DNA from: a virus
DNA: 46,688 nucleotides
Virus record (IMG/VR): IMGVR_UViG_3300037459_000169
Coordinates: 1 to 46,688 of that record
Reading direction: 5' to 3' (one strand)
Below are positions 8,242 to 39,541 of the stretch, one piece after another. Within the stretch, counting starts at the first letter, position 1; the number at the start of each line of letters is the position of its first letter. A program made the translations under genes and the position numbers. The notes beneath the pieces are model-generated. The model saw only the letters and a list, made by a program, of their open reading frames with translations, made no database searches and had not been told where the DNA came from.

Positions 8242-8636
8242 TAGAATTGCACGTCCACCAATGCAGCGAAGCCAATGAGGACTCCGCCCTGCGGGGTGTA
8301 GTTGTGATTCCCTACGAAACGATACGAGCGGTCCAGGTACAGGAAGACATCTGAACTTGCATCCGCCACGAGAAACCGGGCTTCCTGTCCGGCAGGGAAG
8401 CTGGACGTGCGTGCGTAGAACTCCACGATTTCACTGTTGCGGTCAGCCTCCGGAACCTGCAGCAGCTGACGCCCGTCAACGGTGTGCGCGGCCACGGGGT
8501 TCACTTCGAACACGAACGGCGTGACCGGCTCGTAAGCACCGCGTTCGTTCTTCACGCGTCCTGGGTGACGTGTCATCTGCAACGGTCCAACGTTGAACCG
8601 GTTGATGATGCGGCCAACTGCAAGGGGCAGGGCCAT
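8241..8636 (-). CDS. Probable head closure / head-tail joining protein
   Basis: 131 aa, beta-rich, with 1-4 bp overlaps to both neighbours. The segments TRHPGRVKNERGAY, YEPVTPFVFEVNPV, TVDGRQLLQVPEADR and DRSYRFVGNHNYTPQGGVLIG give a compact barrel-like pattern as in stopper/closure proteins, which are of this length. It lies just before the terminator-like gene. No definite family was recognised, so the role is inferred from place and size. Confidence 0.4.
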   Translation of the reverse strand: MALPLAVGRIINRFNVGPLQMTRHPGRVKNERGAYEPVTPFVFEVNPVAAHTVDGRQLLQVPEADRNSEIVEFYARTSSFPAGQEARFLVADASSDVFLYLDRSYRFVGNHNYTPQGGVLIGFAALVDVQF

Positions 8637-9169
8637 CAGTCCTTCACGTCTTCCAGTTCTTGTGGGGTGAGCTTCAAAAGTTCCTTCACTTCGGACTTTC
8701 GTTCCTGCTCCACAAGTGCCTTCTGTGCGGCCTCGAGCTCAGGGTCCAGCTCCACAGCGGTTGGGTCTTTGCCTGCAGCTTCCGCGTCAATCTTGTTGCC
8801 CAGGTGTTTCATTTCCTGGGACATGTGCTTTCGCGAGTCAAATATTTCGTCCGCAAGCTTCTCGTGCACCACCTCGTTTTGCTTCTGCGTATCGATGGTG
8901 TCCGGGGCCAGCTTTGCGTAGGCCGTGCCGCCCACACCCCCTGCACCGGCAAGCGCGAAGACCACACGAAACACCATGGCCTTCAGGTCATCGCGCCTTT
9001 CCTGTTTCTTGTCGTCTGCCTTCTTCTTCTTTTTGTCTTCCCCTTCAAGGCGTGCTTCTTCTGCAGCGTACAGGAGATGCTTCACGCCGCCGGAATCGTC
9101 CTGCCCCTTGGTCGCCCCATCAACGTGAGCTTTGTAGGCTGCCAGCTGCTGCTGTGTTTCGAAACTCAT
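8636..9169 (-). CDS. Single-pass membrane, coiled-coil protein in late operon
   Basis: 177 aa. Residues 35-65 are extremely basic/charged (DKKKKKADDKKQERRDD), followed by one hydrophobic stretch, AMVFRVVFALAGAGGVGGTAY (about 64-84), then a long charged helical region to the end. This is the only clear membrane protein among the structural genes. A spanin-like or holin-associated role is possible, as is a protein anchoring assembly to the membrane; nothing in the sequence decides. Flanking genes are also of unknown function. Confidence 0.45.
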   Translation of the reverse strand: MSFETQQQLAAYKAHVDGATKGQDDSGGVKHLLYAAEEARLEGEDKKKKKADDKKQERRDDLKAMVFRVVFALAGAGGVGGTAYAKLAPDTIDTQKQNEVVHEKLADEIFDSRKHMSQEMKHLGNKIDAEAAGKDPTAVELDPELEAAQKALVEQERKSEVKELLKLTPQELEDVKD

Positions 9170-19150: not shown

Positions 19151-19332
19151 ATCTCAAAATCCACGGGGAAGCTGACCTTACGGATGGGTGCGATGAACGT
19201 GCCCTCGAAGCAAACGCGTCCGTCAGCGTACTCGCCGACGCCTACGGTGCTGGGCACGAACACGCCGCTGTCCATCACCTCAGCGAACAGCACATCGATG
19301 GAATCCCCTGCCTGGACCTCGTTGTTGGGCAT
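19147..19332 (-). CDS. Hypothetical 61-aa beta-rich protein
   Basis: I start it at ATG 19332, preceded by GGAG at 6 nt; an in-frame GTG at 19356 would overlap the previous stop (GTGA) and add 8 residues, so either is possible. The product alternates hydrophobic and polar residues (AGDSIDVLFAEVMDSGVFVP, GVGEYADGRVCFEGTFIAP), fitting a small beta-barrel. Coupled by ATGA to the next gene. Function unknown. Confidence 0.45.
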   Translation of the reverse strand: MPNNEVQAGDSIDVLFAEVMDSGVFVPSTVGVGEYADGRVCFEGTFIAPIRKVSFPVDFEI

Positions 19333-19352
19333 CGTGGTCTCCAGGCAGGGGG

Positions 19353-19571
19353 TCACCCCATGCGGTCCCGCTTGACGACGATGGGCGTGGTGGTGTCGTC
19401 ATCCTGCTTGGGCAGTGGTGCCGCCACCGGTGGTGGTGCATCGTCACGCTTGGGTGCGGGTGCGGGCAGGGGCGTGTCGTCGTTATGGCCTGTGCACAGC
19501 AGCCGTGCCGGTCGCAAGGTGGCCATGAACTGTTCAAGGTCGAAGTTGGCAGCGCAACTGGACAACTGCAT
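19353..19571 (-). CDS. First gene of the late operon: 72-aa Pro/Asp-rich protein
   Basis: Starts at ATG 19571 with GGGAG nine bases upstream; a longer reading up to 19847 is antisense to the transglycosylase-like gene and rejected. A short N-terminal helix with two Cys (QLSSCAANFDLEQFMATLR) is followed by a disordered tail repeating P-K-(R/Q)-D-D and P-rich pieces. It is the first gene of the minus-strand block, so the late promoter should lie in 19572-19700. Function unknown. Confidence 0.4.
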   Translation of the reverse strand: MQLSSCAANFDLEQFMATLRPARLLCTGHNDDTPLPAPAPKRDDAPPPVAAPLPKQDDDTTTPIVVKRDRMG

Positions 19572-19673
19572 GGACAAACTCTCCCTTGTCAATAGCCAAT
19601 CGGTCAAGTGCGTGTATAGCGCTTCATCTAGCGTCCCGCACGCATGCCGTCTAGGGGGTACCCTGCACCCCAC
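19572..19673. promoter_or_regulatory. Divergent intergenic region between late and lysis-like genes
   Basis: A 102-bp gap from which the late operon reads left and the transglycosylase-like gene reads right. On the minus strand TATACA (19618-19613) could be a -10 box, but no good -35 precedes it. On the plus strand TTGTCA (19586-19591) is -35-like, with TATAGC at 19615-19620 too far. A GGGTACCC palindrome lies near 19655. A promoter must be here or upstream, but I cannot fix its boxes. Confidence 0.3.
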
Positions 19674-20255
19674 ATGGCTAACATCTGCGCGTTTCTCACA
19701 TCCCTGGGCATGGCCTGCACCCAAGGGGGCAGCGTCGAAGACCTGACGATTCAAGCCGCGGCGGCGGTGGGCGTCCCTCACATGGGGCCTGTGGTCGCTC
19801 GTATCGCCGCCCGTGAATCCAGGGGGGACACACGGGTGAAGGTCCACGCAGGTGATTCATGGGCCTCTCATCGCGTCTGGGAGCGTGCCGTGGCCAAGGG
19901 GTGGCTGGACCCTGAGTGTCAGCCCTACGGCGATGGAGGCTGGAGCACCCGGGGAGCTCACGGCTTGATGGCCGCCTACTCCCTGCGCTTCCTCCCCGAG
20001 CTCCAGTGTGCCGGGCCGGAGGTCTTGGACCATCCAGCAGTGAGCGCCATCGCTGCAGTTCGAAGAGCGCGGAGCACGGGAGGTGACTGCGAGGCAGTGG
20101 CCGAGGAATGGGCAGGGCGCGGGAGGTGGGCGCAGAGGTCTTGGCTGAAGCGATGGACCAAAGCATGGGAGGTCTGTGATGGACCACCACCGAGCATGGT
20201 CTGGACGTTCCGAACAGGGCTGATTTTGGTCCGACTGACTACGGTGTTTTTTTAG
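19674..20255 (+). CDS. Transglycosylase (SLT-like) candidate, lysis or entry enzyme
   Basis: 193 aa from ATG 19674 (an ATG at 19644 in frame adds 10 residues). The core VVARIAARESRGD places a Glu (E48) where lytic transglycosylases have theirs, and STRGAHGLMAAYSLRFLP corresponds to the G..GLMQ...... motif, with Ala replacing the usual Gln. A later IAAVRRAR segment and a WAGRGRW piece fit the helical SLT fold. A short hydrophobic N-terminus (ANICAFLTSLGMAC) could be a weak signal or anchor. It stands alone between the two gene blocks. Likely cleaves peptidoglycan; the changed motif lowers confidence. Confidence 0.5.
   Translation: MANICAFLTSLGMACTQGGSVEDLTIQAAAAVGVPHMGPVVARIAARESRGDTRVKVHAGDSWASHRVWERAVAKGWLDPECQPYGDGGWSTRGAHGLMAAYSLRFLPELQCAGPEVLDHPAVSAIAAVRRARSTGGDCEAVAEEWAGRGRWAQRSWLKRWTKAWEVCDGPPPSMVWTFRTGLILVRLTTVFF
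20237..20251 (+). terminator. Possible weak terminator (T-tract) at the end of the transglycosylase gene
   Basis: A run of seven T (20245-20251 region) follows a very short CCG/CGG stem inside the 3' end of the gene. The stem is only 3 bp, so intrinsic termination would be poor; I note it because no better terminator separates this gene from the regulators. Confidence 0.2.
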
Positions 20256-20324
20256 TTTAGCATGCACGCCGCGTATAGAGCGGATTGGACCCAAATCGTC
20301 TCATGTTCTAGAAGCTCGTAATCA

Positions 20325-20352
20325 TTGACCTTTGTGCCTACGAAACTATCAC
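20325..20352 (+). promoter_or_regulatory. Promoter candidate before the HTH regulator pair
   Basis: TTGACC (20325-20330), 16-bp spacer, TATCAC (20347-20352). The -35 matches five of six consensus positions. The same TTGACC with a 16-bp spacer occurs in the candidate at 21283-21310. It lies in the 148-bp gap 20256-20403, which holds no gene. Confidence 0.35.
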
Positions 20353-20357
20353 GCAAA

Positions 20358-20399
20358 GTACCACTGGCTTTTTCTCAAGTGCACCGGCTACACTGGTAC
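20358..20399. promoter_or_regulatory. Operator-like inverted repeat over a possible leaderless start
   Basis: GTACCA (20358-20363) and TGGTAC (20394-20399) form an inverted repeat. A -10-like TACACT (20389-20394) ends 9 bases before the ATG of the first HTH gene, so transcription from it would begin at or next to the ATG; no ribosome-binding sequence precedes that ATG. This resembles the leaderless repressor mRNA of some temperate phages. GTACCA also recurs in the two repeats at 21077 and 21221. Confidence 0.3.
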
Positions 20400-20403
20400 A
20401 TAC

Positions 20404-20775
20404 ATGAATACAAAAATCATCTTCGGGCGCAATGTCCGCACCCTCAGAAAGAAGCAGAACTGGACCCTGCGGCAGGTCGAAGTGCTGACCAAAATCAGCA
20501 CATCCCGCCTGTCGCAAATCGAACTTGGGCGCGCTTCCCCTGGGTGGGTCACCATCAGCAAGCTGTGCGAAGCCTTGCATGTCATGCCGTCCCTTCTCTT
20601 CCGGGGGGTAAACTTCAGGGATGAGGTGGTGCCGCTCCCTGTCGTTGCACCGGCTGACGGCGCACGTGCCTTTGCCATCTTGGACCATGCAGCCCCAACG
20701 GCCCAGCAGGCCACTGCGCATGGCCGCGGCGAATGTAACCGCAACACCTGTCCCTACTGCGCGGGGCGGTCATGA
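20404..20775 (+). CDS. HTH (XRE-family) transcriptional regulator with Cys-rich tail
   Basis: 123 aa from ATG 20404. Residues 6-65 are a classic XRE/Cro-CI domain: FGRNVRTLRKKQNWTLRQVE, then LTKISTSRLSQIELGRASPG (turn and recognition helix), then ISKLCEALHVMPSLLF. The C-terminus ends with HGRGECNRNTCPYC, three Cys that could bind metal. No peptidase domain, so it is not a LexA-type repressor. It overlaps the second HTH gene by 4 bp. Probable role: control of early promoters, possibly including its own. Confidence 0.8.
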   Translation: MNTKIIFGRNVRTLRKKQNWTLRQVEVLTKISTSRLSQIELGRASPGWVTISKLCEALHVMPSLLFRGVNFRDEVVPLPVVAPADGARAFAILDHAAPTAQQATAHGRGECNRNTCPYCAGRS

Positions 20776-21032
20776 AACCGCTGAAGGCCTTTGGCGCCAA
20801 CGTGAAGCGGCTGCGGGAAGCCTTGGGCGCCACGATTGAACAGCTCGCGGAAGCGGTTGGGGTGCCGGTGGGCACCGCACGACGGTGGGAAAACGGTTCC
20901 TGGCGCGTAGGCAAGAGCCTGGAGTCCCTGTGCATCGCCTTGGACGTGACCCCCTCGGAGCTCTATGAAGGCGTGGACTATCGCCAGACCGTCTTCAGCG
21001 CCATGGATGAAAAAGGGACGCCCCAGCATTGA
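20772..21032 (+). CDS. Second HTH (XRE-family) regulator
   Basis: 86 aa. FGANVKRLREALGATIEQLAE, then AVGVPVGTARRWENGSWRVG and LESLCIALDVTPSELYEG make a full five-helix XRE domain filling most of the protein. It resembles the upstream regulator in layout (both end the domain with a LC.AL.V.PS.L segment), so the two may stem from a duplication and could heterodimerise or compete for operators. It is translationally coupled to it by ATGA. The control region 21033-21386 follows directly. Confidence 0.8.
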   Translation: MKPLKAFGANVKRLREALGATIEQLAEAVGVPVGTARRWENGSWRVGKSLESLCIALDVTPSELYEGVDYRQTVFSAMDEKGTPQH

Positions 21033-21047
21033 GGCGCCCCGAGGACC

Positions 21048-21065
21048 GCCGGGCTTTCCCCCGGC
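21048..21065 (+). terminator. Small hairpin after the HTH operon
   Basis: GCCGGG (21048-21053) and CCCGGC (21060-21065) with a 6-nt loop, 16 bp after the stop of the second regulator gene. No T-run follows, so it is at best a weak or factor-assisted terminator. Confidence 0.3.
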
Positions 21066-21076
21066 ACGATTCATGA

Positions 21077-21094
21077 TGCGGCACCGTACCAAAG
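21077..21094 (+). repeat. 18-bp direct repeat, copy 1
   Basis: TGCGGCACCGTACCAAAG, identical to 21221-21238, 144 bp apart. Similarity continues into the adjoining hairpin (GAAAACCC.GC). Contains the GTACCA motif discussed at 20358-20399. Confidence 0.8.
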
Positions 21095-21095
21095 A

Positions 21096-21130
21096 AAACC
21101 CTGCAAGGGTTATGAATCCTCGCAGGGTTT
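21096..21130 (+). terminator. Terminator-like hairpin 1
   Basis: Perfect 9-bp arms AAACCCTGC (21096-21104) and GCAGGGTTT (21122-21130), 17-nt loop. The A-run before and T-run after would let it act in both directions, but the T-run is only three bases long. Confidence 0.5.
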
Positions 21131-21220
21131 CCGAGCTCACCTCGCTGCAGCTCGAGGCGTTTTGGTCCTGCTCCCTGATTCCGACGGACCAGTCGCGCTC
21201 CCTCGTGTCTGAACACTGGG

Positions 21221-21238
21221 TGCGGCACCGTACCAAAG
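21221..21238 (+). repeat. 18-bp direct repeat, copy 2
   Basis: Second perfect copy of the 21077-21094 sequence, again followed after one or two bases by a terminator-like hairpin. The repeat-hairpin pair is therefore duplicated as a unit. Confidence 0.8.
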
Positions 21239-21239
21239 G

Positions 21240-21271
21240 AAAACCCCGCGAGGCAAGCCCGGCGGGGTTTT
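21240..21271 (+). terminator. Terminator-like hairpin 2
   Basis: Perfect 10-bp arms AAAACCCCGC (21240-21249) and GCGGGGTTTT (21262-21271), 12-nt loop. It is stronger than hairpin 1. It stands 12 bp before the -35 box of the next promoter candidate, so it would insulate the replication operon from the regulator operon. Confidence 0.6.
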
Positions 21272-21282
21272 CAGACGCGGGG

Positions 21283-21310
21283 TTGACCTGCAGCTGCGTG
21301 CTGGTCTAGT
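21283..21310 (+). promoter_or_regulatory. Early promoter candidate for the replication operon
   Basis: TTGACC (21283-21288), 16-bp spacer, TCTAGT (21305-21310). Matches five and four of six consensus bases. A transcript would start near 21317, leaving a 70-nt leader with the palindrome at 21358-21378 before the PrimPol ATG. Confidence 0.4.
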
Positions 21311-21357
21311 CTGCGCCCTGAACTGATTGGCTTTGTGAGGGCACCTTTGCACATTGC

Positions 21358-21378
21358 GGGGCGCTTGCGCAAGCCCCC
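21358..21378 (+). promoter_or_regulatory. Palindrome in the PrimPol leader
   Basis: A perfect 12-bp palindrome GCTTGCGCAAGC (21363-21374) flanked by GGGG and CCCC, giving a hairpin with one bulged C and a GCGC loop, 8 bp before the ATG. It could be an operator, an mRNA hairpin affecting initiation, or an origin element. An alternative TTG start at 21354 would lie just before it. Confidence 0.35.
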
Positions 21379-21386
21379 TGCTGCGC

Positions 21387-24314
21387 ATGTCCCGCGAACG
21401 CTTCCTCGCCCACCTGAAAACCCTGCAGAAGCTGGGTTTCAATGCCGTACCGGCCCATCCACTGGAAAAGCACCCGGCTGGCGCATGGAAGGGATTGGCC
21501 CATCCCAAGGGCCGGCGCGTCACTGACGCAGATATTCACGCTGGCCTGTGGGTTGAAGGCACCTTCCCAGACGAACCGCTGCAGCTGTTCCTGTTCCCCT
21601 CAAGCCATCCCACGCACCCGCTGGTGGTGGTGGACGTGGACGACATGGACTACTTGCCCACCGTCCTGGAAGACTTCGGGCCCACCCCGTACCAAGTGAA
21701 GACGCGCCGCGGGGTCCACCTGTATTACCGCGCGGACCCAGCGGCCAAGGTCACGAGCCGCAACTGGCTGTACGGAGAGCGGTCCGTGGACATCAAGGCG
21801 TGGAACGCTGGGGTGATGGCCCCCGGCGCCCGTGGTGGGCTCTATGCCCCATCCATCCCCTTGGACCAATGGGTGCTGTCCGAGGTCCCCCTGTTCAACC
21901 TGGAAGCGTACGAAGCCCTGTGGCTGGCGAACCGGCCCAAGGCCCGCGCCGTCGCGCGCACCGCTGCCGCGGCCAACCCCGAGGCCTACCTGCACGTGGA
22001 GATGGGAGAACCGCAGCTGACCCGCAGTGGCCTCGAGAAAATGGGGGAGATTGCCGGAGACACCCTGGTCACCCACGAGCGCACCGGTGGCGCCATGCGC
22101 ATCGACAAGGTGCCGGCCGGCGACAAGGTCTTTGCCTTCGACCGTGAGGATGGGCATGCCAGCGGGCAGGTATGGGAAGGCGCCGGCCAGCGTTGGTACA
22201 CCGACCACACCCTGGGCACGCTGTGGCGTGTCGTCATGGATTCAGAGCTGGACTGGCGCCGGGCGTACGCGCCCTCAGACCCCGTAGAGACACAGCAGGG
22301 GGGTGGTTTAGACCTGGCCGCCGAACTGCAGGCCATGGGGCTGGAAGTCATCATCCTCCCATCCGATGGGTACATCACCATCCCCCAGCAAGACGGATTG
22401 ACCATCATCAAGGCGCCCCACGGCACGGGCAAGACTGTCCTGGCCCGCACTTGGATGGACGCGGCGCGCTCCGGCATCTCTGTCTGCAACACGGCTGCCT
22501 TGGCGGAGCACAATGGAGCCAAGTTCGGCATCGACTGCTATCAGGAAGAAGAGTGCGGTCCAAAGGTGTCCACCACCATCAACAGCCTGGTCAAGTTGGA
22601 CCGGGACCAAGTCGACTTCATGCACATTGATGAAGCCGACGGCGTCCACGCATACCTCCACAGCGGCACCATGGATGACCCTGTGGCCAACATGCAAAAT
22701 ATGCTGGACCTGGCGGCGTCCGCAAAAAGAACACTGATTGCCAGCGCTGACCTTGGCGCTGAAGACATTTCGTGGTACGTAAAAGCCTATGCAAAAAGAA
22801 ACCCGGAAGGCACTGTCAGAGTTTTCATCAAACCCCCTAGTCCAGGCAGCCGATGCATTCGTCTTGTCCCTCTGGCCACGGCAAAGGCTGCTTTTGAGTC
22901 AGCTTTTGCAAATCGCGGGAGGAATGTCCAGCCGATTGCTTTGGGTTGCACTGCAAGAAGTGATGTCGGACATCTCGCGTGGGGATACGCTGGACGAAGT
23001 AGCGCCCGTGTTTTCTGGGTCTCCGGAGAAAACAGCCGATACCGGGAGACCATCGAACGATTCCGGGGACAGTGGACGGACAGACTAACCCAGACCGCAG
23101 ATTTCCTGGATGCCGCTGATGTTTTCATCTTCTCCCCCGCCCTTCAATCCGGTGTGTCTCTCGAGGCCCCAGTTGCGCGCGTCTTCATGCTGCACACCAA
23201 GGCAGATTTCCCAGTCGAGTCCATATGCCAGATGCTTATGCGCTTTCGCAACGTGCAAGACGTGGAGGTGGTGTGGGGCGTGTCTGATTTCAAGCGAAGA
23301 CTGGTCCACTTGGACGATTGCTACCTTGAGCAAGTCTGCGCGGAGCTTGCCAGCGAAACGGACCGGCAGCTACTTGAAGCGCTGCCCGAATATTCGGAGT
23401 TTGGGTTTCCCGTCAATGAAGAGTTTGCCTGGTCCTGGCGCATCGCTGAACGGAGACTCCGCCGCAGCTACGCCGACCCCATCGGTCGTGCAAAGGAGGT
23501 TATTGCAGGTCATGGGTGGACTATACTGGATGAAGTTGGAGCCGATGTGGAGCCGGATGAAGCATCACAACGCTTCAACGAGACACGCACTGCAGCCGCG
23601 GCGATTCGGAATGCTGAAACCGCTGCCGCTATTGTCGGGGCCACTGTACTGGACGAAGCCGAGGCTGATGCGATTGACCGGGCCCATGTACACGATGGCG
23701 ATGACAGCCAGAAGCTGACGCGCCATCGCATCAAGACGTTCTACGGGTTGGACACGGTGACGATGGAAGATGTCAGGCGCGATGCGAAGGGGAGGTACCG
23801 AGTGAAGTGTCGGAACTACGCATCGCTGTTGTTCACGGCACTGGGCCGCATGGGTCTGGACGAAGGTAGGGCACTGGCGTGGACGGACTTCCAGCGCTCC
23901 AAAGGCCGACAAGCCAGCGAGTATCCGCACATCGTGCAAAAGGCGCAGATGACCTTCGACCTGCACCAAGCCCTGACCGACGGGCAGCCCATAGGGCACC
24001 CCCTGGACATCCCGACGGCGGTCATCGAAGCCAGGGCCATCCAGTTCATCAAGGACAACGGCGCCCACTGGGGCGTCCTGTTCGGCTCCAGGCCTAGCAA
24101 ACCGCTGGCCTGGGCCGCGGCACAGATGCGCCGATGTGGCGCTAACGTGTTGAAATCAAAGGACCGAAAAAAGAAGTTGATTAGTTTTGATTTTAGTGAA
24201 ATACATTCGTACAGCGAAATGTATCGGAAGCGATTGTTGGAAGAGTTCAAGAACGAGAAGGACAGCGAAACATGGAACAAAGAAATGACGAAGTTGAGAC
24301 TGGTGACCGGCTGA
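21387..24314 (+). CDS. Primase-polymerase (AEP) fused to origin-binding-type helicase
   Basis: 975 aa from ATG 21387. Residues 5-180 are a bifunctional primase/polymerase domain: VVVDVDDMD with D83/D85, VHLYYR with H111, and SVDIKAWNAGVMAPGA with D135, the metal and nucleotide motifs of archaeo-eukaryotic primases. Residues 330-640 form a helicase like herpes-type origin-binding proteins: KAPHGTGKT (Walker A, 342-350), HIDEAD (413-418), FIFSPALQSGVSL and QMLMRFRN (motif VI, 615-622). A Lys-rich C-terminus follows. It should prime DNA and unwind it; it probably starts replication. Its last 43 bp overlap the next gene. A TTG at 21354 could add 11 residues. Confidence 0.8.
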   Translation: MSRERFLAHLKTLQKLGFNAVPAHPLEKHPAGAWKGLAHPKGRRVTDADIHAGLWVEGTFPDEPLQLFLFPSSHPTHPLVVVDVDDMDYLPTVLEDFGPTPYQVKTRRGVHLYYRADPAAKVTSRNWLYGERSVDIKAWNAGVMAPGARGGLYAPSIPLDQWVLSEVPLFNLEAYEALWLANRPKARAVARTAAAANPEAYLHVEMGEPQLTRSGLEKMGEIAGDTLVTHERTGGAMRIDKVPAGDKVFAFDREDGHASGQVWEGAGQRWYTDHTLGTLWRVVMDSELDWRRAYAPSDPVETQQGGGLDLAAELQAMGLEVIILPSDGYITIPQQDGLTIIKAPHGTGKTVLARTWMDAARSGISVCNTAALAEHNGAKFGIDCYQEEECGPKVSTTINSLVKLDRDQVDFMHIDEADGVHAYLHSGTMDDPVANMQNMLDLAASAKRTLIASADLGAEDISWYVKAYAKRNPEGTVRVFIKPPSPGSRCIRLVPLATAKAAFESAFANRGRNVQPIALGCTARSDVGHLAWGYAGRSSARVFWVSGENSRYRETIERFRGQWTDRLTQTADFLDAADVFIFSPALQSGVSLEAPVARVFMLHTKADFPVESICQMLMRFRNVQDVEVVWGVSDFKRRLVHLDDCYLEQVCAELASETDRQLLEALPEYSEFGFPVNEEFAWSWRIAERRLRRSYADPIGRAKEVIAGHGWTILDEVGADVEPDEASQRFNETRTAAAAIRNAETAAAIVGATVLDEAEADAIDRAHVHDGDDSQKLTRHRIKTFYGLDTVTMEDVRRDAKGRYRVKCRNYASLLFTALGRMGLDEGRALAWTDFQRSKGRQASEYPHIVQKAQMTFDLHQALTDGQPIGHPLDIPTAVIEARAIQFIKDNGAHWGVLFGSRPSKPLAWAAAQMRRCGANVLKSKDRKKKLISFDFSEIHSYSEMYRKRLLEEFKNEKDSETWNKEMTKLRLVTG
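24201..24224. repeat. Inverted repeat in AT-rich island of the PrimPol gene
   Basis: ATACATTCG (24201-24209) and CGAAATGTAT (24215-24224) pair with one extra A. It sits in about 24150-24260, which is much AT-richer than the surrounding GC-rich sequence and has the -35-like TTGATT at 24177. Could be a promoter/operator for the small genes downstream or a duplex-unwinding site. Confidence 0.3.
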
Positions 24315-25245: not shown

Positions 25246-25496
25246 CGCTTGCACAGCCATGTAAGGGGTGCGGCGCGCCGCCCATCGTCAGCCGGAAGTC
25301 CAGTTCCATGTCCATCTGGTATGAAGTGCGATGCACCCAGATGTGCACCGAACACCATACCCAATCCTCTGACAGGGACTACGCGGTGAAGCAATGGAAC
25401 GGTCCGGTCATCGAAGTGGTCCTCTGCACCTGCCCCGGGTCTGAAAGTTTGCGTGGTGGAAAGCACAAGCCGGGCTGCCCGACAGGTGACGTATGA
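25242..25496 (+). CDS. Lar-like zinc-ribbon protein (possible restriction alleviation)
   Basis: 84 aa. PCKGCGAPPIV then a Tyr-containing strand YEVRCTQMC and AVKQWN matches the Lar family pattern (CP.CG, later C..C, ending A...WN). Lar proteins of lambdoid phages and Rac relieve type I restriction by modulating host methylation. Here a further Cys-containing tail (LCTCPGSES, GCPTGDV) is added, beyond the usual 60-70 aa. The family is broad and many members are untested, so the role is only suggested. Confidence 0.5.
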   Translation: MTLAQPCKGCGAPPIVSRKSSSMSIWYEVRCTQMCTEHHTQSSDRDYAVKQWNGPVIEVVLCTCPGSESLRGGKHKPGCPTGDV

Positions 25497-25810
25497 AACG
25501 CCGAGACTTCTTCAAGCTGCTGACGGCCACGCCCGCGGCGTTCCTGGTCAGCAAATACGGCATGCCCAACGGCAGCGCGGCGCCGGCCGAGAGGTTTGAA
25601 GCCCTCCAGTTGCTGGACAGGTTTACGTTGACCCTTCCCCCGGAGGGACCCCTCGCCTACACCGGCGGCGGGATATCCAAAATCAAGGCCACGGACAAAG
25701 ACGGGCGAGATATTTCGGACCAGTTCCACCTCACCGAGGGGGGCATTGTGCAGTACAGCGGGACCGGCCCCGTTCGCGTGGTGCTGGACGTGGAGGTGAA
25801 AAATGACTGA
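25493..25810 (+). CDS. Tat-signal protein of unknown function, 105 aa
   Basis: The N-terminus MKRRDFFKLLTATPAAFLVS has the twin-arginine motif RRDFFK followed by a mild hydrophobic stretch and A-rich region, a textbook Tat signal. The mature part is beta-rich (ALQLLDRFTLTLPPEG, GGISKIKATDKDGRDIS, GPVRVVLDVEV). A folded protein sent by Tat to the periplasm is rare in phages. The end (VKND stop) repeats exactly at the end of the next gene; see the repeat entries. Confidence 0.55.
   Translation: MKRRDFFKLLTATPAAFLVSKYGMPNGSAAPAERFEALQLLDRFTLTLPPEGPLAYTGGGISKIKATDKDGRDISDQFHLTEGGIVQYSGTGPVRVVLDVEVKND
25796..25810 (+). repeat. Gene-junction direct repeat, copy 1 (pair a)
   Basis: GTGAAAAATGACTGA spans the end of the Tat gene and start of the next. 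It matches 26001-26015 at 14 of 15 bases, 205 bp away. The 70-aa gene 25803-26015 thus lies between two near-identical junctions. Confidence 0.6.
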
Positions 25811-34189: not shown

Positions 34190-34848
34190 AGTTCAAAATG
34201 GACTGCAACTTTCCCGACTGTGAAGGTGGCAGGATTGGCAACTCCGACGGCCCCCGCCAAGAATGTTCAAGGTGCCACGGCTACGGGTGGCTGATAGTGG
34301 AAGGTGAACTGATGGAGCCGGCGGAATCCATGTGCCTGACCTGCGGCTTCCACCATGCCGACGGAGAGCCCCACATCTACGCCGACCAAGACATCATCCG
34401 GGAAGCCCTGAACGACACGAAGGTGACGTACGATGCGACGCCCGGGAAGGAGCGTGCGGTCATCACAGGGTCTGACCCGGAAGACGTAGCACGCGTCACC
34501 AAGCAGTTGCAAAAAGAGAAGGGGCGGATGCGCGAGACATTCAAGCGCAAGCTAGCTGCGGTGCTGGAAGCTGAAGTCAAGCCGCAGATGGGGCTGTTGC
34601 CCTTTGATGCGCTGGAAGAAGTGGCCAAGGTGCTGACGCATGGGGCCAAGCTCCCGGGGTACAGCCCCAACGGATGGCGCACGCGCCCGGGGACAGAGCA
34701 TTTCGATGCGATGCTTCGGCACCTGGCGGACTACCAAGTGCGCGCAGACCTGGACAGTGAATCCAACCTGCCCGTGTTGGCGCACATGTGTTGCCGGGCC
34801 CTGTTCATGCTGTCGTTCTATCTGAAGGATGAAGAATGCAGGCACTAA
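34186..34848 (+). CDS. dATP/dGTP pyrophosphohydrolase-like protein with N-terminal zinc fingers
   Basis: 220 aa. Residues 132-215 match the N-terminal domain of phage dATP/dGTP diphosphohydrolases: LLPFDALEEVAKVLTHGAKL, SPNGWRTR, HFDAMLRHLADYQVRADLD, LPVLAHMCCRALFMLS. Members split dNTPs; relatives occur in Z-genome phages, but no PurZ gene is present here. Two Cys pairs at 7/12 and 27/30 with G-rich turns, and CLTCGFHH (50-53), give zinc-finger-like additions not usual in the family. Activity would alter nucleotide pools. Confidence 0.55.
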   Translation: MKFKMDCNFPDCEGGRIGNSDGPRQECSRCHGYGWLIVEGELMEPAESMCLTCGFHHADGEPHIYADQDIIREALNDTKVTYDATPGKERAVITGSDPEDVARVTKQLQKEKGRMRETFKRKLAAVLEAEVKPQMGLLPFDALEEVAKVLTHGAKLPGYSPNGWRTRPGTEHFDAMLRHLADYQVRADLDSESNLPVLAHMCCRALFMLSFYLKDEECRH

Positions 34849-35138
34849 TGGACACACGCTCCCACGTCACCGCCGCCGTCCGGATGGCGTCCATGCACTT
34901 TGACATCCCAGCCGTGGTGATTCGCGGGCGCAACCGGACACTGCGCGTGGCGCAGGCCCGGTCGTTCGCGTACTGGGTGTCACGCGTCAACAGTTCGGAC
35001 AGCTTCCCGGAGCTTGGGCGCATCTGGAAGCGTGACCACACCACCATCATGTCCGGGGTGTTCGCTTTTTCTAGGTTCATCAAACAACAACGACCCTGGG
35101 CATTGGAGGCCCACCGCGTATGGCTGAAGACAGTGTGA
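34836..35138 (+). CDS. DnaA domain IV-like DNA-binding protein (orphan)
   Basis: 100 aa from ATG 34836 (AAGGA at 6 nt upstream; ATG 34848 is also possible as TAATG). The central IRGRNRTLRVAQARSFAYWV, then FPELGRIWKRDHTTIMSGV is the DnaA C-terminal signature (R...R..AR, G..F.RDHTT), which reads DnaA boxes. No AAA+ domain is present. It could bind host DnaA boxes or phage origin sites, or compete with DnaA. The 3' end overlaps the next gene. Confidence 0.75.
   Translation: MQALMDTRSHVTAAVRMASMHFDIPAVVIRGRNRTLRVAQARSFAYWVSRVNSSDSFPELGRIWKRDHTTIMSGVFAFSRFIKQQRPWALEAHRVWLKTV
35120..35138 (+). repeat. Gene-start direct repeat, copy 1 (pair b)
   Basis: ATGGCTGAAGACAGTGTGA matches 35322-35340 (start of the amidase gene) at 17 of 19 bases, 202 bp apart. 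The 64-aa Cys gene lies between them. Confidence 0.6.
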
Positions 35139-35329
35139 CGAAAAGACGAGACAAGACGGTCAAACACCTGGCGCTTAGAGAAGCGCGTGATTCCATGTGC
35201 ATGGGCTGCATGATTGGGATGCCCGACAGCCCCGAAGACTGCATCTATGAACAACCCAACGCCCCGGACGGTTCCCACTGCTTTGCCGAACCTATCCGGG
35301 CCTTGATTTTGGAGGAGAAAAATGCCTGA
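35135..35329 (+). CDS. Small Cys-containing protein (64 aa) between repeat copies
   Basis: I place the start at GTG 35135 (GTGA overlap with the DnaA-like stop); ATG 35120 in frame would add five residues and is preceded by GGAGG at 10 nt. The protein has CMGC, then C and C further on (DSMCMGCMIGM, EDCIYEQ, HCFAEP), fitting one zinc site. Its end overlaps the amidase ATG by 8 bp. It looks like a cassette inserted before the amidase; no family recognised. Confidence 0.45.
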   Translation: MTKRRDKTVKHLALREARDSMCMGCMIGMPDSPEDCIYEQPNAPDGSHCFAEPIRALILEEKNA

Positions 35330-35340
35330 AGACAGCGTGA
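35322..35340 (+). repeat. Gene-start direct repeat, copy 2 (pair b)
   Basis: ATGCCTGAAGACAGCGTGA, the first bases of the amidase gene; two mismatches to 35120-35138. Confidence 0.6.
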
Positions 35341-36095
35341 GTAGTTACGCATGGCGCAACATCGGAGGTGCCATGCTCCGGATGCCGCTGGTGCGGCAAA
35401 TCATCGGACACGAAGAGCCCCAAAACCTGGGGCTGGGAGACCGCAAGAAACCTGAATCGTGTGCGGCGATAATCCGGGCCGAAGACTTCCTTGGGGACCT
35501 GTACCCTGGGACGAAGAAGCGCAGGCGAATCCTGCGGTCCCGTCCCACGGACGTGGACACGTTGGCCATCCACCAGATGGATGCCATCTTCGGCACATCC
35601 CGGCAGCAGCGGAAGAAGTTTGGCGGTGCCCTGCCTGCGTTGATTGGACGCATGGCGATGCAGCCCTATCATGTGTCCGGGCTTCTCTCCGGTCCGGTGG
35701 TCATCGCCCACCATCCCAAGGTCTACACCTACGCATCGTCCAAGGCGAACCGCTTCAGCGTGGGCGTGGGGCTCGAGGGCAGGTGGCCCGGCTTCGAGAA
35801 GCGCAGGAAGGCGAAGCACACCGAACCGTCGGACCAAATCCTTGCGACGTACAAGCAGGCGATTCGAACGGCGTACGATGAAGCCACCGCGTGGGGTTGC
35901 AAAATCAAGTACGTCACGGCCCACCGATGCTGGTCCAAGAACCGACGCCCCGACCCAGGCGAATGGATTTGGAAGAACGTGGTGCTGCCGATGATGGAAG
36001 AACTGGGGCTGACGTTGCACCCTGGGACCAAGGACGGTGGTGTGCTGCCTCCGGTGGAGTGGGGCTTCACAGGTTTCGGTGGGAGGACAGAATGA
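35322..36095 (+). CDS. N-acetylmuramoyl-L-alanine amidase-type endolysin
   Basis: 257 aa. The zinc amidase pattern is visible: LAIHQMDAIFG with H84, SVGVGLEGRWPG with E152 (Glu of the IE-G motif), and TAHRCWSKNRRPDPGEWIW with H201 and D211 (the HR...R.DPG..W signature). It ends with a PPVEWGF tail. Enzymes of this type cut the bond between muramic acid and peptide. No signal peptide, so it depends on a holin. Oddly for an endolysin it is encoded in the early plus-strand operon next to replication genes. The 58-aa membrane protein at 36501 is a candidate partner. Confidence 0.65.
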   Translation: MPEDSVSSYAWRNIGGAMLRMPLVRQIIGHEEPQNLGLGDRKKPESCAAIIRAEDFLGDLYPGTKKRRRILRSRPTDVDTLAIHQMDAIFGTSRQQRKKFGGALPALIGRMAMQPYHVSGLLSGPVVIAHHPKVYTYASSKANRFSVGVGLEGRWPGFEKRRKAKHTEPSDQILATYKQAIRTAYDEATAWGCKIKYVTAHRCWSKNRRPDPGEWIWKNVVLPMMEELGLTLHPGTKDGGVLPPVEWGFTGFGGRTE

Positions 36096-36292: not shown

Positions 36293-36504
36293 CCGAACTA
36301 CTCTCAATCCTTGGCCAAGTCCTGAAGCTTGGCCGTTCCCCCGAAGCACTGCGCGGCCGTCTGTCCTACGCGCTGGCGCGTGTCGCCGACCTGCAACACC
36401 TGCTGGAGGAGGAGCCCAACAAACGCGTGAAGAGGCGCAAGCGACGGCTGGCCTACTGGCAGGGTCGCGTGGACACGCTGATGGATAGGTTGGGTGACGG
36501 ATGA
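36289..36504 (+). CDS. Hypothetical 71-aa basic helical protein
   Basis: Arg/Leu-rich, helical: LLSILGQVLKLGRSPEALRG, RLSYALARVADLQHLLEEEP, KRVKRRKRRLAYWQGRVDTL. The strongly basic middle (KRVKRRKRR) could bind nucleic acid. No family recognised. Overlaps neighbours by 4 bp on both sides. Confidence 0.45.
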   Translation: MTELLSILGQVLKLGRSPEALRGRLSYALARVADLQHLLEEEPNKRVKRRKRRLAYWQGRVDTLMDRLGDG

Positions 36505-36677
36505 ATGACCAAGACTCCATCTACTGGCTACACGGGTTGCGGGAAGGGGTGCGCCGATTCTTTTTGTTTGTTGCGCTTGCGACATGCATCACCACGTTCG
36601 TGTGGGCATTTCTAAACCCCGCAGAGTCAGTACGCGCGGTGCAGAGAGACCTCCCGGTGGGGCGCCATGGTCCATAG
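36501..36677 (+). CDS. Small single-pass membrane protein, holin candidate
   Basis: 58 aa, coupled at its start (ATGA) and overlapping the VRR-NUC gene at its end by 11 bp. One hydrophobic helix at about 20-41 (FFLFVALATCITTFVWAFLN) with basic residues (REGVRR) just before it and a charged tail. Size and place three genes after the amidase make a holin or antiholin plausible; pinholin-like proteins of 60-70 aa exist. One span is fewer than in classic class I/II holins. Confidence 0.45.
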   Translation: MNDQDSIYWLHGLREGVRRFFLFVALATCITTFVWAFLNPAESVRAVQRDLPVGRHGP

Positions 36678-37071
36678 GCCACGCCCTCCCCGGGAAGGCG
36701 TCGAAGGTCAAGACCTGGCCCGGTGGCTTCGGCGCCGTGGGGTCAGGTTCTGCCACGTCCCCAACGGGGGCACCCGGGGCAAGCGAGAGGCCGCAAAACT
36801 GGTGGCTGAAGGGGTGGAGGCGGGGGTTCCGGACTATCTGGTGTTTGACAGGCCCACCTTGCACCCCCACCCGTCTCCAGACTGGCCGGAGCGTGGGACC
36901 CCTGTGGGTGTGGCCATCGAGCTCAAACGCGTCTCGGGGGATTCTGGGGCGTCTGCCGAACAGACCGAATGGCTGGAAGCGCTACGTGCGCGGGGGTGGG
37001 TGGCGTTCGTTGCCCACGGCGCAAAGGACGCACAGCGAAGGCTGACAGAAATGGGCATTGGCATGGAATGA
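36667..37071 (+). CDS. VRR-NUC domain nuclease
   Basis: 134 aa. LARWLRRRGVRFCHVPNGG, then GVPDYLVFDRPT and VGVAIELKRVSGDSGASAEQ, ending TEWLEALRARGWVAFVAHGA, the order of stand-alone VRR-NUC proteins (PD...E.K..., then Q..W...L...G). E and K of IELKR and D of VPDYLVF are the catalytic trio. These are PD-(D/E)XK-type nucleases, including Holliday-junction or structure-specific enzymes in phages. Confidence 0.75.
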   Translation: MVHRPRPPREGVEGQDLARWLRRRGVRFCHVPNGGTRGKREAAKLVAEGVEAGVPDYLVFDRPTLHPHPSPDWPERGTPVGVAIELKRVSGDSGASAEQTEWLEALRARGWVAFVAHGAKDAQRRLTEMGIGME

Positions 37072-37077
37072 CTTTCG

Positions 37078-37096
37078 TGGTACGTATGTATTACCA
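37078..37096. promoter_or_regulatory. Palindrome in the 33-bp gap before the methylase genes
   Basis: TGGTA-CGTATGTAT-TACCA, 5-bp arms. This lies in the largest gap of the plus operon after the PrimPol gene and contains TGGTAC, as does 20394-20399, with similar bases following (TGGTAC-R-TA). Could be a regulator site for the methylase cluster. Confidence 0.3.
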
Positions 37097-37104
37097 ACGT
37101 GCCC

Positions 37105-37248
37105 ATGAAGATTCTCCAGCTGCAGAAACTCCACACGGCCGCGCAGAAGCGGGTGCTTGCCGAAAGGCTGCAGGCTCTGCTGGCCCGGACGGAAGACGAA
37201 GTTGACCAGTTCATCATCAAAGCAGCCATCCGGAGTGCATTACGATGA
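37105..37248 (+). CDS. Small 47-aa helical protein before the methylase
   Basis: A short frame coupled to the methylase ATG (ATGA). MKILQLQKLHTAAQKRVLAE, then LQALLARTEDEVDQFIIKAA: one amphipathic helix hairpin. A GTG at 37099 would add two residues. No ribosome site of strength. Possibly a partner or regulator for the methylase. Confidence 0.45.
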   Translation: MKILQLQKLHTAAQKRVLAERLQALLARTEDEVDQFIIKAAIRSALR

Positions 37249-37931
37249 AAATCGGCTCATTGTTCAGCGGCATTGGTGGGCTGGACCTTGGGGTTGAACG
37301 TGCCACGGGCGGCCGTGTGGTGTGGCAGTGCGAGAACAATCCGATGTGCAGGCAGGTGCTGAAGAAGCACTGGCCGGACGTCCCCTGCTACTCGGACATC
37401 GTGGGGCTTGAGCCGCCACCCGTTGACGTTTTGATTGGCGGGTTTCCTTGTCAAGATTTGAGCGACGCTAGCCGCGGCCGGGGCGGTGGCCTCGCCGGAG
37501 AGAAGTCAGGACTGTGGTATGAAATGCTCCGAATCATCAAACTCATCCAGCCCGGTCGGGTCTTTATCGAAAACGTCGCTGGCGCTGCTTGGAAGAAGTG
37601 GGTGCCCAGCGTGCGGGCTGACCTGTGGGATATCGGATACCCCACGATGCCACTTCTCATGTCGGCCGCCGCGGTGGGGGCCCCGTTCACCGGAGATAGA
37701 ATCTTCATTGCCGCGACCCACGGCGAAAGCAAATCAACTCGCACCTTCAATGCGAAAGTGGCCGGGATGTCGCAGGCTCCAAGACCTGTGCGGAAGGATT
37801 GGGGGGAGCCCACATCCACAGCTTTGGGAATGGCTGATGGGGTTCCCCGAAAAATGGACAGACTTAGAGCCGTAGGGAATGCGGTTTGTCCCCAACAGGC
37901 AGAAGCCGCCTACAGGTTGACACATACATGA
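37245..37931 (+). CDS. C5-cytosine DNA methyltransferase, short form
   Basis: 228 aa. Motif I LFSGIGGLDLG, motif IV GGFPCQDLS with catalytic C69, motif VI ENV (109-111), motif VIII GDRIFIAA with R152, and LRAVGNAVCPQQAEAAY (motifs IX/X). The stretch between motif VIII and the C-terminal motif is only about 50 residues, so the target-recognition domain is very small. It would methylate phage DNA against host restriction. No cognate endonuclease is nearby; specificity is unknown. Confidence 0.85.
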   Translation: MKIGSLFSGIGGLDLGVERATGGRVVWQCENNPMCRQVLKKHWPDVPCYSDIVGLEPPPVDVLIGGFPCQDLSDASRGRGGGLAGEKSGLWYEMLRIIKLIQPGRVFIENVAGAAWKKWVPSVRADLWDIGYPTMPLLMSAAAVGAPFTGDRIFIAATHGESKSTRTFNAKVAGMSQAPRPVRKDWGEPTSTALGMADGVPRKMDRLRAVGNAVCPQQAEAAYRLTHT

Positions 37932-37945
37932 AACTCGGAAGACCA
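37928..37945 (+). repeat. Gene-start direct repeat, copy 1 (pair c)
   Basis: ATGAAACTCGGAAGACCA, identical to 38109-38126, the first bases of the RHH-like gene. Here it runs out after six codons (MKLGRP) and is followed at once by the ATG of the 54-aa membrane protein. Confidence 0.75.
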
Positions 37946-38109
37946 TGAAACGAAACTTTGATTACGTGTCCGCAATCCTCGGCACCTGCTCTGGCTGGTG
38001 CTCGTTGGCGATGCTAGACACCACAGCATGGTGGCAATATATTTTTCCACCCGTATTCGCATTCAGTGCCATTGCAGTCCTTACCAAGCGAAAGAACCGA
38101 GAGTGGTGA
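37945..38109 (+). CDS. Small membrane protein (54 aa) between repeat copies
   Basis: Two hydrophobic segments, DYVSAILGTCSGWCSLAMLD and WWQYIFPPVFAFSAIAVL, then a basic end (TKRKNREW), giving a two-span hairpin with both ends inside. Its TGA overlaps the next ATG (TGATG). It lies between two copies of an 18-bp repeat and looks inserted. A second holin candidate or a membrane-level moron; function unknown. Confidence 0.5.
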   Translation: MKRNFDYVSAILGTCSGWCSLAMLDTTAWWQYIFPPVFAFSAIAVLTKRKNREW

Positions 38110-38126
38110 TGAAACTCGGAAGACCA
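38109..38126 (+). repeat. Gene-start direct repeat, copy 2 (pair c)
   Basis: Exact copy of 37928-37945, here at the true start of the 55-aa gene. Confidence 0.75.
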
Positions 38127-38276
38127 CGCAGAAACAAAGTCATTGCTGACAAGATGATGACGGTGCGGACAACCGCCGGAGAGAAGAGAAGCTTCAGGGC
38201 TTCCGCCAAATCTCTGGGGTTGTCCTTGTCCGATTTCATCCGTCACCTTTACGCCGAATGGAAGAAGAGACGATGA
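38109..38276 (+). CDS. Small basic DNA-binding-like (RHH-type) protein
   Basis: 55 aa from ATG 38109. MKLGRPRRNKVIADKMMTVR, then AGEKRSFRASAKSLGLSLSD, FIRHLYAEWKKRR. One strand followed by two helices with LGLSLSDFIRHL is a ribbon-helix-helix pattern, found in small phage and plasmid repressors. It may regulate the operon's 3' part. Coupled by ATGA to the lipoprotein gene. Confidence 0.5.
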   Translation: MKLGRPRRNKVIADKMMTVRTTAGEKRSFRASAKSLGLSLSDFIRHLYAEWKKRR

Positions 38277-39046
38277 ACAGACTCATCCTAGTCGTTCTGT
38301 TTTCCGCCTGCGGGGCAGAGCAGATTCCATATCGCGGAGCCACCAGCGTTGGGGGTGGGGGTGGAACAGGAGGGGTGGTGGACGAGTCGACGGGCGCGGG
38401 GTCAACCGGAGGTGTAGGTGGGTCCAGCGCAGGCGGGGACGAGTCCAGCGGTGGTGTTGAATCCACCAGCGCAACGTCCAGTCCGACATCTACCAGCTCA
38501 ACGTCCACGACCACGTCTACGTCCACGACTGCTGTGGCAGGTTCCACGGGCGGCTCCACTGGAGACAGACCTCCCCCGTGGGATGGCATCGTGTGTTCTG
38601 GAATCTGCAATGTCCCTGCGATGTGTGATGACCTCCCAGAAAAGCAGGAGGCTGCCGACTGCGCGGCAGCATGCGGACCTGCGTGGCAGGATGATTGCCT
38701 CGCGGACGCCTGCGTGATTGCGTGCGGCATCCCGTACGACATCGCGCTCGCCGAGTGCTACACAGCGGGGGATTGCGCCTCCGACTGCGACGTGCGGGTG
38801 TGCTACGCGATGTGTGGTGACGCGGCGGTAGATTGTCTTTTAGACGCTGAGATACTGGGGTGTGCCCCCGAGGCCAACGATTCGTGCATTCAACAGAGAA
38901 GTACATGCATTCAGGAGTGTCAGGATTCAATGCCCACACCGGCTATCCAAGCTCAAATGTACGCCCGTGCCAAAGGGTGGCACTGGCTATTCCTACTTAT
39001 CCCCCCGCTGTGGGTGCTGGCTTGGTGGAGGCTTCGTGGGAAGTAA
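38273..39046 (+). CDS. Cys-rich lipoprotein-like surface protein with Gly/Ser/Thr linker
   Basis: 257 aa. MNRLILVVLFSACGAEQ is a short lipoprotein-like signal with C13 as the candidate lipidated Cys. Residues about 28-97 are almost only Gly, Ser, Thr, Val and Glu (SSPTSTSSTSTTTSTSTTAV), a long flexible linker. Residues 107-220 contain 18 Cys in a C...C spacing of 3-11 residues (CSGICNVPAMC, CAAACGPAWQDDCLADACVI) and no known family. The end (HWLFLLIPPLWVLAWW) is a C-terminal membrane helix before a basic tail. This architecture is typical of myxobacterial secreted proteins. Possible host-envelope or superinfection role. Confidence 0.6.
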   Translation: MNRLILVVLFSACGAEQIPYRGATSVGGGGGTGGVVDESTGAGSTGGVGGSSAGGDESSGGVESTSATSSPTSTSSTSTTTSTSTTAVAGSTGGSTGDRPPPWDGIVCSGICNVPAMCDDLPEKQEAADCAAACGPAWQDDCLADACVIACGIPYDIALAECYTAGDCASDCDVRVCYAMCGDAAVDCLLDAEILGCAPEANDSCIQQRSTCIQECQDSMPTPAIQAQMYARAKGWHWLFLLIPPLWVLAWWRLRGK

Positions 39047-39053
39047 CGTTGTC

Positions 39054-39308
39054 ATGCTAGAATCTGTGCAGCTGCTGAAGGTGGACTCCCGATTTGGGAC
39101 CGGTGAAGATGGTGACCCCGTCCGCATCATCACGGAATACTTCAAGGCAGACGGGACGCTACTGCTGCGGGAAGACCCGCACATTGAGCACGCAGTGACC
39201 GCGGCCGCACAGGCCTGGAAGGAAGTGTGGACCACCGCACCCATGGACATGAAGAAGGCAGAGAAGCTGCAGAAGAACCTGTTCGAAGTTCTGGAGAATC
39301 ACAAATGA
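39054..39308 (+). CDS. Hypothetical 84-aa protein
   Basis: ATG 39054, 8 bp after the lipoprotein stop, with GGAAG 10 nt upstream. A beta part (ESVQLLKVDSRFGTGEDGDP, IITEYFKADGTLLLREDP) precedes a helical part (AVTAAAQAWKEVWTTAP, KAEKLQKNLFEVLENHK). No family recognised. Coupled by ATGA to the last plus-strand gene. Confidence 0.5.
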   Translation: MLESVQLLKVDSRFGTGEDGDPVRIITEYFKADGTLLLREDPHIEHAVTAAAQAWKEVWTTAPMDMKKAEKLQKNLFEVLENHK

Positions 39309-39541
39309 TTCTCAGACGTTTCAATCGCAAAGGACGTCCCAGGGGTGACAAGCACTGGCGTTGTAATGCCTGCGGAGAGGTCATCAAGATTGGAGATTGC
39401 TACGCGGCCATCGGGCAAGTCAGGATGGGAGTGCACATTATCGCTGTGCATGCGAAATGCCCTAAGCAGCTTCAATCTGCTGCATTGACTCGCGCATCAG
39501 CACCGGGTCAATCACGGCCTGGGCCCAACACCGACAGTTGA
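39305..39541 (+). CDS. Zinc-ribbon protein, last gene of the plus block
   Basis: 78 aa from ATG 39305. HWRCNACGEVIKIGDCYAAI and VHAKCPKQ give Cys pairs CNAC and later C/H-C, an HNH-like or LIM-like single zinc site; the start is basic (ILRRFNRKGRPRGDK). Its last 80 bp overlap the 3' end of the MuF-like gene on the opposite strand, so the two transcription blocks converge inside coding sequence without a terminator between them. Confidence 0.5.
   Translation: MILRRFNRKGRPRGDKHWRCNACGEVIKIGDCYAAIGQVRMGVHIIAVHAKCPKQLQSAALTRASAPGQSRPGPNTDS

Follow-up and report, generated by a model that had tools for sequence, protein, structure and literature searches.

An orphan cysteine-rich lipoprotein gene in a phage genome, a candidate unimolecular spanin

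The lipoprotein gene and its genome setting

The window, that is, the whole stretch of DNA analyzed here, is IMG/VR virus record IMGVR_UViG_3300037459_000169 (46,688 bases), a phage sequence of environmental origin. Its gene set includes a portal, terminase, head protease, tape measure, baseplate, family A DNA polymerase, prim-pol and helicase. Most core genes are shared, at 30–60% identity and in the same order, with a sister phage, G001 (41.6 kb; the genome behind L084 and loci L085–L087), and L048 and L004 are further partial relatives. Synteny with G001 extends across the window ends, and the G001 contig itself breaks inside the baseplate gene (L084 end). This suggests circular permutation and a near-complete window genome, though IMG/VR lists the record as linear.

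Other genes in the two phages also drew attention. The replication block of the window contains a stand-alone DnaA-type helix-turn-helix domain (34836–35138, + strand; PF08299, 42.5 bits). The 105-aa product of 25493–25810 (+) has a twin-arginine-like N-terminus, MKRRDFFKLLTATPAAFLVS, which is odd in a phage protein, and gave no match in Pfam. In the tail gene cluster, the product of 8636–9169 (–) has a single hydrophobic stretch flanked by long charged regions and is conceivably an i-spanin-like or tail-associated membrane protein. The product of 19674–20255 (+) resembles that of L085 18536–19063 (–) in G001 (..ESRG..WLDPECQPYGDGGWSTRGAHGLMAAY..), whose gene is on the opposite strand; by eye, both proteins look like lytic transglycosylases, and neither had a match in Pfam or PHROG. 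G001 also carries, at 19300–21700 (L085 from ~19300 to 20000 and L086 from its start to ~1700), a run of small genes beginning MKTNT or similar, spaced by a recurring sequence element that reads LHTPNLRPLGGLSTPRCR in several frames.

The gene of interest had been picked out in a sequence-only reading of the window, and its ORF was recovered intact, running from an ATG at 38273 to a stop at 39044–39046 (Table 1). This start was preferred over an in-frame ATG at 38258 because the Shine–Dalgarno-like GGAAGAAGAG precedes it. It overlaps the preceding ORF through ATGA. No intrinsic terminator was found downstream of the gene on the + strand, and terminator-like matches were no commoner than in shuffled sequence.

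Table 1. Positions of the lipoprotein gene, its parts and neighboring genes in the window
Feature	Position	Strand	Remarks
Endolysin: N-acetylmuramoyl-L-alanine amidase, Amidase_2 superfamily (very likely)	35322..36095	+	via six viral homologues
58-aa single membrane-helix protein, holin candidate	36501..36677	+	octanol –14.2, Kyte–Doolittle 2.27
VRR-NUC nuclease, conserved left border of accessory block	36667..37071	+	
Accessory block: cytosine methylase, 2-TM protein, ribbon-helix-helix protein, lipoprotein, two small genes	37072..39461	+	absent from G001 and L048
54-aa membrane protein, two-helix holin candidate	37945..38109	+	size and hydropathy
Small ribbon-helix-helix DNA-binding protein	38109..38276	+	PF21983, 27.3 bits (cut-off 27); PHROG Arc-like repressor, E 0.0055
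Shine–Dalgarno-like GGAAGAAGAG	38260..38269	+	ends three bases before ATG 38273
Orphan lipoprotein gene, candidate cysteine-rich unimolecular spanin	38273..39046	+	257 aa
Short lipoprotein signal MNRLILVVLFSA and putative lipidated Cys13	38273..38311	+	lipobox LFSAC
Gly/Ser/Thr linker, residues 14–102 (89 residues)	38312..38578	+	66% G+S+T
Cys-rich acidic domain, residues 108–216	38594..38920	+	18 Cys, six CX3C, no CXC/CXXC
Trp-rich C-terminal membrane segment GWHWLFLLIPPLWVLAWW, residues 235–252	38975..39028	+	octanol scale; comparison with T1 gp11
Basic C-terminal tail RLRGK	39029..39043	+	sequence

In G001 and L048, a convergent head gene comes almost directly after the VRR-NUC gene; in the window, the 2.4-kb accessory block is inserted at this point. 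The lipoprotein gene has a synonymous codon score of –0.05, versus 0.04 to 0.16 in the 14 core genes tested, and a GC3 of 0.64 versus 0.74. Compared with core genes, synonymous codon use is lower in most genes of the block, and GC3 is lower throughout. Absence of the block from syntenic relatives, together with low codon use and GC3, marks the lipoprotein gene as accessory and perhaps newly acquired.

Searches of phage and plasmid collections, Pfam, PHROGs and NCBIfam with the lipoprotein returned no homologue, and PDB sequences gave only a chance match (E 0.7). No relative was confirmed in genome_contigs by a scan that needs exact 8-residue matches and would therefore miss distant relatives. 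The sole relative found, on a viral contig of 5.2 kb (viral_contigs), is identical, so that the sequence family has one member.

Signal, linker, cysteine-rich domain and membrane segment

The sequence-only reading had described a lipobox-like signal, and an atypical box (LFSAC) is present at Cys13. It misses the strict [LVI][ASTVI][GAS]C consensus, owing to Phe at –3, and fails the classical spacing rule because just nine uncharged residues precede the Cys. Non-canonical boxes are on record, with FVGC in catalogued o-spanins and AWAC functional in a u-spanin (PMC6139136). The G001 lipoprotein has an equally short signal, MKRRPFLLLPIAAC, with a canonical box (IAAC). No other window gene has a strongly hydrophobic lipobox signal; the one further candidate, at 19674, is a weak LGMAC without a basic n-region.

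The Gly/Ser/Thr linker and the 18-Cys region of the sequence-only reading were both borne out (Table 1). Apart from Cys13, all of the 19 cysteines fall within 109 residues; the remaining phage proteome is 0.9% Cys. CX3C occurs six times in this domain versus 2.5 expected in shuffles (p ∼0.02), and no CXC or CXXC motif was found, a spacing that would be more easily reconciled with helical disulfides than with zinc sites or those of thioredoxin type. The domain has 22 D/E versus 3 K/R. Structure prediction, which had been proposed along with the original description, gave a helical model for the domain at low confidence (single-sequence AlphaFold). But the models were poor, with pLDDT 55 for the lipoprotein fragment and 43 for the endolysin, and a fold search with these two unreliable models gave no match.

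A C-terminal membrane helix ending in a basic tail had also been claimed, and the octanol scale agrees. On the Wimley–White octanol scale, the segment (residues 236–254) scored –18.5 kcal/mol, the strongest value among all window proteins, compared with –19.3 kcal/mol for the C-terminal segment of T1 gp11, the positive control. On the Kyte–Doolittle scale it was weak, at 0.87 (one overlapping window) versus 2.97 for T1 gp11, due to five Trp and a Pro-Pro pair; the latter may kink the segment. Model blocks covering the segment had pLDDT values of 81–92. A hydrophobic helix followed by basic C-terminal residues is also seen in MYXO-CTERM and other C-terminal sorting signals. Yet the lipoprotein matched none of the NCBIfam C-terminal sorting families, and searching the window with MYXO-CTERM (TIGR03901) gave nothing at E ≤ 1.

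To see how unusual the combination of anchors is, 1541 mechanical ORFs (minimum length 120 aa) from the window and the collected loci were put through a relaxed lipobox test and a C-terminal membrane test. Eleven passed the former, 16 the latter and four both, and all four were copies of the 38273–39046 protein sequence.

Lysis genes in the vicinity

Direct family searches with the 35322–36095 protein were uninformative: Pfam missed Amidase_2, and NCBIfam gave only AmpD at E 0.12. The protein carries amidase motifs, however, and a motif scan of viral contigs plus phmmer yielded six viral homologues (50–93 bits), which match PF01510 or align with it. Among the five homologues scanned, four lie well over the Amidase_2 Pfam cut-off and one just over; in one of the five, a peptidoglycan-binding domain scores over its cut-off as well. 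H84, H201 and D211 are invariant in an alignment with the six viral amidases. Based on the Amidase_2-matching homologues and these invariant residues, 35322–36095 very likely encodes the endolysin. No relative of it was found in genome_contigs, and for its closest homologue there was none in the phage collection.

This gene lies in a same-strand block with the lipoprotein gene, 2.2 kb upstream, with several unrelated genes between. Two small membrane proteins encoded nearby, by 36501–36677 and 37945–38109, qualify as holin candidates on size and hydropathy alone; the second has no homologue except an identical copy (L002). In three loci with related endolysins (L065, L072 and L073), the endolysin gene is followed by a gene for a TM protein and then by a lipoprotein gene overlapping it. 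The lipoproteins of L072 and L073 show weak similarity to PHROG 812, ‘Rz-like spanin’ (E 0.056 and 0.0039, respectively). Thus, this type of endolysin occurs elsewhere together with lysis lipoproteins, although no lipoprotein found near a related endolysin has a C-terminal helix. In G001, the interval from DNA polymerase to VRR-NUC contains a lipoprotein gene and, in place of the amidase gene, one for an M15 peptidase endolysin (PF08291 over cut-off).

A candidate unimolecular spanin

Unimolecular spanins (u-spanins) such as T1 gp11 connect the outer with the inner membrane and break the outer one during lysis. They are defined by an N-terminal lipobox and a C-terminal TMD, and phage lipoprotein genes are rare and usually the starting point of spanin searches (PMC6139136). 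On these published criteria, and given this rarity, we take a u-spanin-like role as the most likely one for the 38273–39046 protein, a candidate function whose chances we rate as about even. Several observations favor it: the double anchor is unique in the scan, the octanol value is near that of T1 gp11, the gene encodes the sole convincing lipoprotein of the window, and endolysin and holin-like genes lie in the same gene block. We also count in its favor the lipoproteins encoded near related endolysins, two of which resemble PHROG ‘Rz-like spanin’, and the short-signal lipoprotein and M15 endolysin in the corresponding stretch of G001. The earlier suggestion of a phage-coded envelope lipoprotein, perhaps aiding release, fares best in this layout and gene company, while the signal is atypical. 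With Escherichia phage T1 gp11 and the 12 other u-spanin families, the protein shares an N-terminal lipoprotein-like signal, if an atypical one, a single part predicted to be periplasmic, a C-terminal helix with a basic tail (one chain that could join both membranes), and endolysin and holin-like genes in the genome.

Other features point the opposite way. Besides the atypical lipobox and the weak Kyte–Doolittle segment with its Pro-Pro, there are 18 presumably periplasmic Cys, versus none in the 58 catalogued u-spanins, and a helical, low-confidence model, versus a mainly beta T1 family (PMC6139136). At 257 aa, the protein is nearly twice as long as T1 gp11 (133 aa), and its long Gly/Ser/Thr linker and Trp-rich helix also set it apart from u-spanins. 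The gene is not directly beside the endolysin gene; it lies within an accessory insertion, where a moron gene would be expected, and has no homologue by which to gauge conservation. The protein resembles no described u-spanin family in sequence (phages, PHROGs, Pfam), though these families are themselves mutually unrelated. Because of this dissimilarity and the missing periplasmic Cys in 58 u-spanins, we do not file it in a described family. That trait is an observation on 58 members and lies outside the definition; the survey concluded that the chemistry of u-spanins differs from that of two-component spanins (PMC6139136). If the function holds, the protein would be a new, disulfide-rich u-spanin type.

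In the main competing reading, the protein is a surface lipoprotein of host type, captured as a moron, that alters the infected-cell envelope, for example by phage exclusion or receptor masking, with the C-terminal helix as an inner-membrane anchor or sorting signal. Its location in an accessory block that relatives lack would fit this, as would codon and GC3 values below those of core genes, although the low codon score is common to several neighboring genes. The linker and Cys domain may also resemble those of myxobacterial lipoproteins. The sequence-only reading saw in this a hint of a myxobacterial host, a possible one for which the genome, phage and plasmid collections scanned yielded no relative of the protein; the findings speak neither for nor against the superinfection blocking that it also raised. 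But no known C-terminal sorting signal was matched, and lysis-type neighbors are present. The exclusion lipoproteins Llp of T5 and Cor of phi80/N15, likewise phage-coded lipoproteins from accessory genes, differ in being small and are not known to carry a C-terminal helix. Overall, we find a surface function rather unlikely.

Less plausible still, indeed improbable, is an o-spanin that works with a distant i-spanin, a type II membrane protein such as the product of 8636–9169. In that protein, a hydrophobic stretch does precede a charged C-terminal part that is probably helical, and lipoproteins near related endolysins look like o-spanins. However, its hydrophobic stretch falls below both membrane thresholds used, and o-spanins carry no C-terminal membrane helix, whereas the lipoprotein has its own. 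The two genes lie ∼29 kb apart in opposite operons, versus ∼1 kb for the largest separation in the survey (PMC6139136), and no i-spanin gene was found near the lipoprotein gene. In two-component spanins (lambda Rz/Rz1, T4 PseT.3/PseT.2), a lipoprotein and periplasmic disulfides are usual, yet systems in the survey have at most eight Cys, versus 18 in this one chain. The high Cys content could alternatively mark a metal- or redox-active periplasmic lipoprotein with no part in lysis or exclusion. We consider this very improbable, given that CXXC and CXC motifs are lacking and that Pfam, NCBIfam, PHROG and the fold search gave no match.

If the protein does act as a u-spanin, Sec would export it and, after lipidation on Cys13, it would reach the outer membrane; the Trp-rich helix would remain in the inner membrane, so that a single chain would bridge the periplasm. 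The flexible linker would thread the cell wall, and the Cys-rich helical domain, probably disulfide-bonded, would make up the body. Once holin and amidase endolysin had opened the wall, the protein would collapse or oligomerize and thereby fuse or disrupt the outer membrane, releasing virions. More tentatively, and with somewhat less than even confidence, we propose that this is the first disulfide-rich u-spanin. In such a bridging fusogen, a helical, multiply disulfide-bonded body would replace the beta-rich, Cys-free one and be joined to a long, flexible linker and a Trp-rich membrane segment; oxidation of the domain could then determine how it folds or when it acts.

A working u-spanin with 18 Cys would, if true, break the no-periplasmic-Cys rule drawn from 58 cases (PMC6139136). 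It would also be a small bacterial membrane fusogen of a new type, supplying the outer-membrane lysis step in a phage group for which the collections searched hold no close cultured relative.
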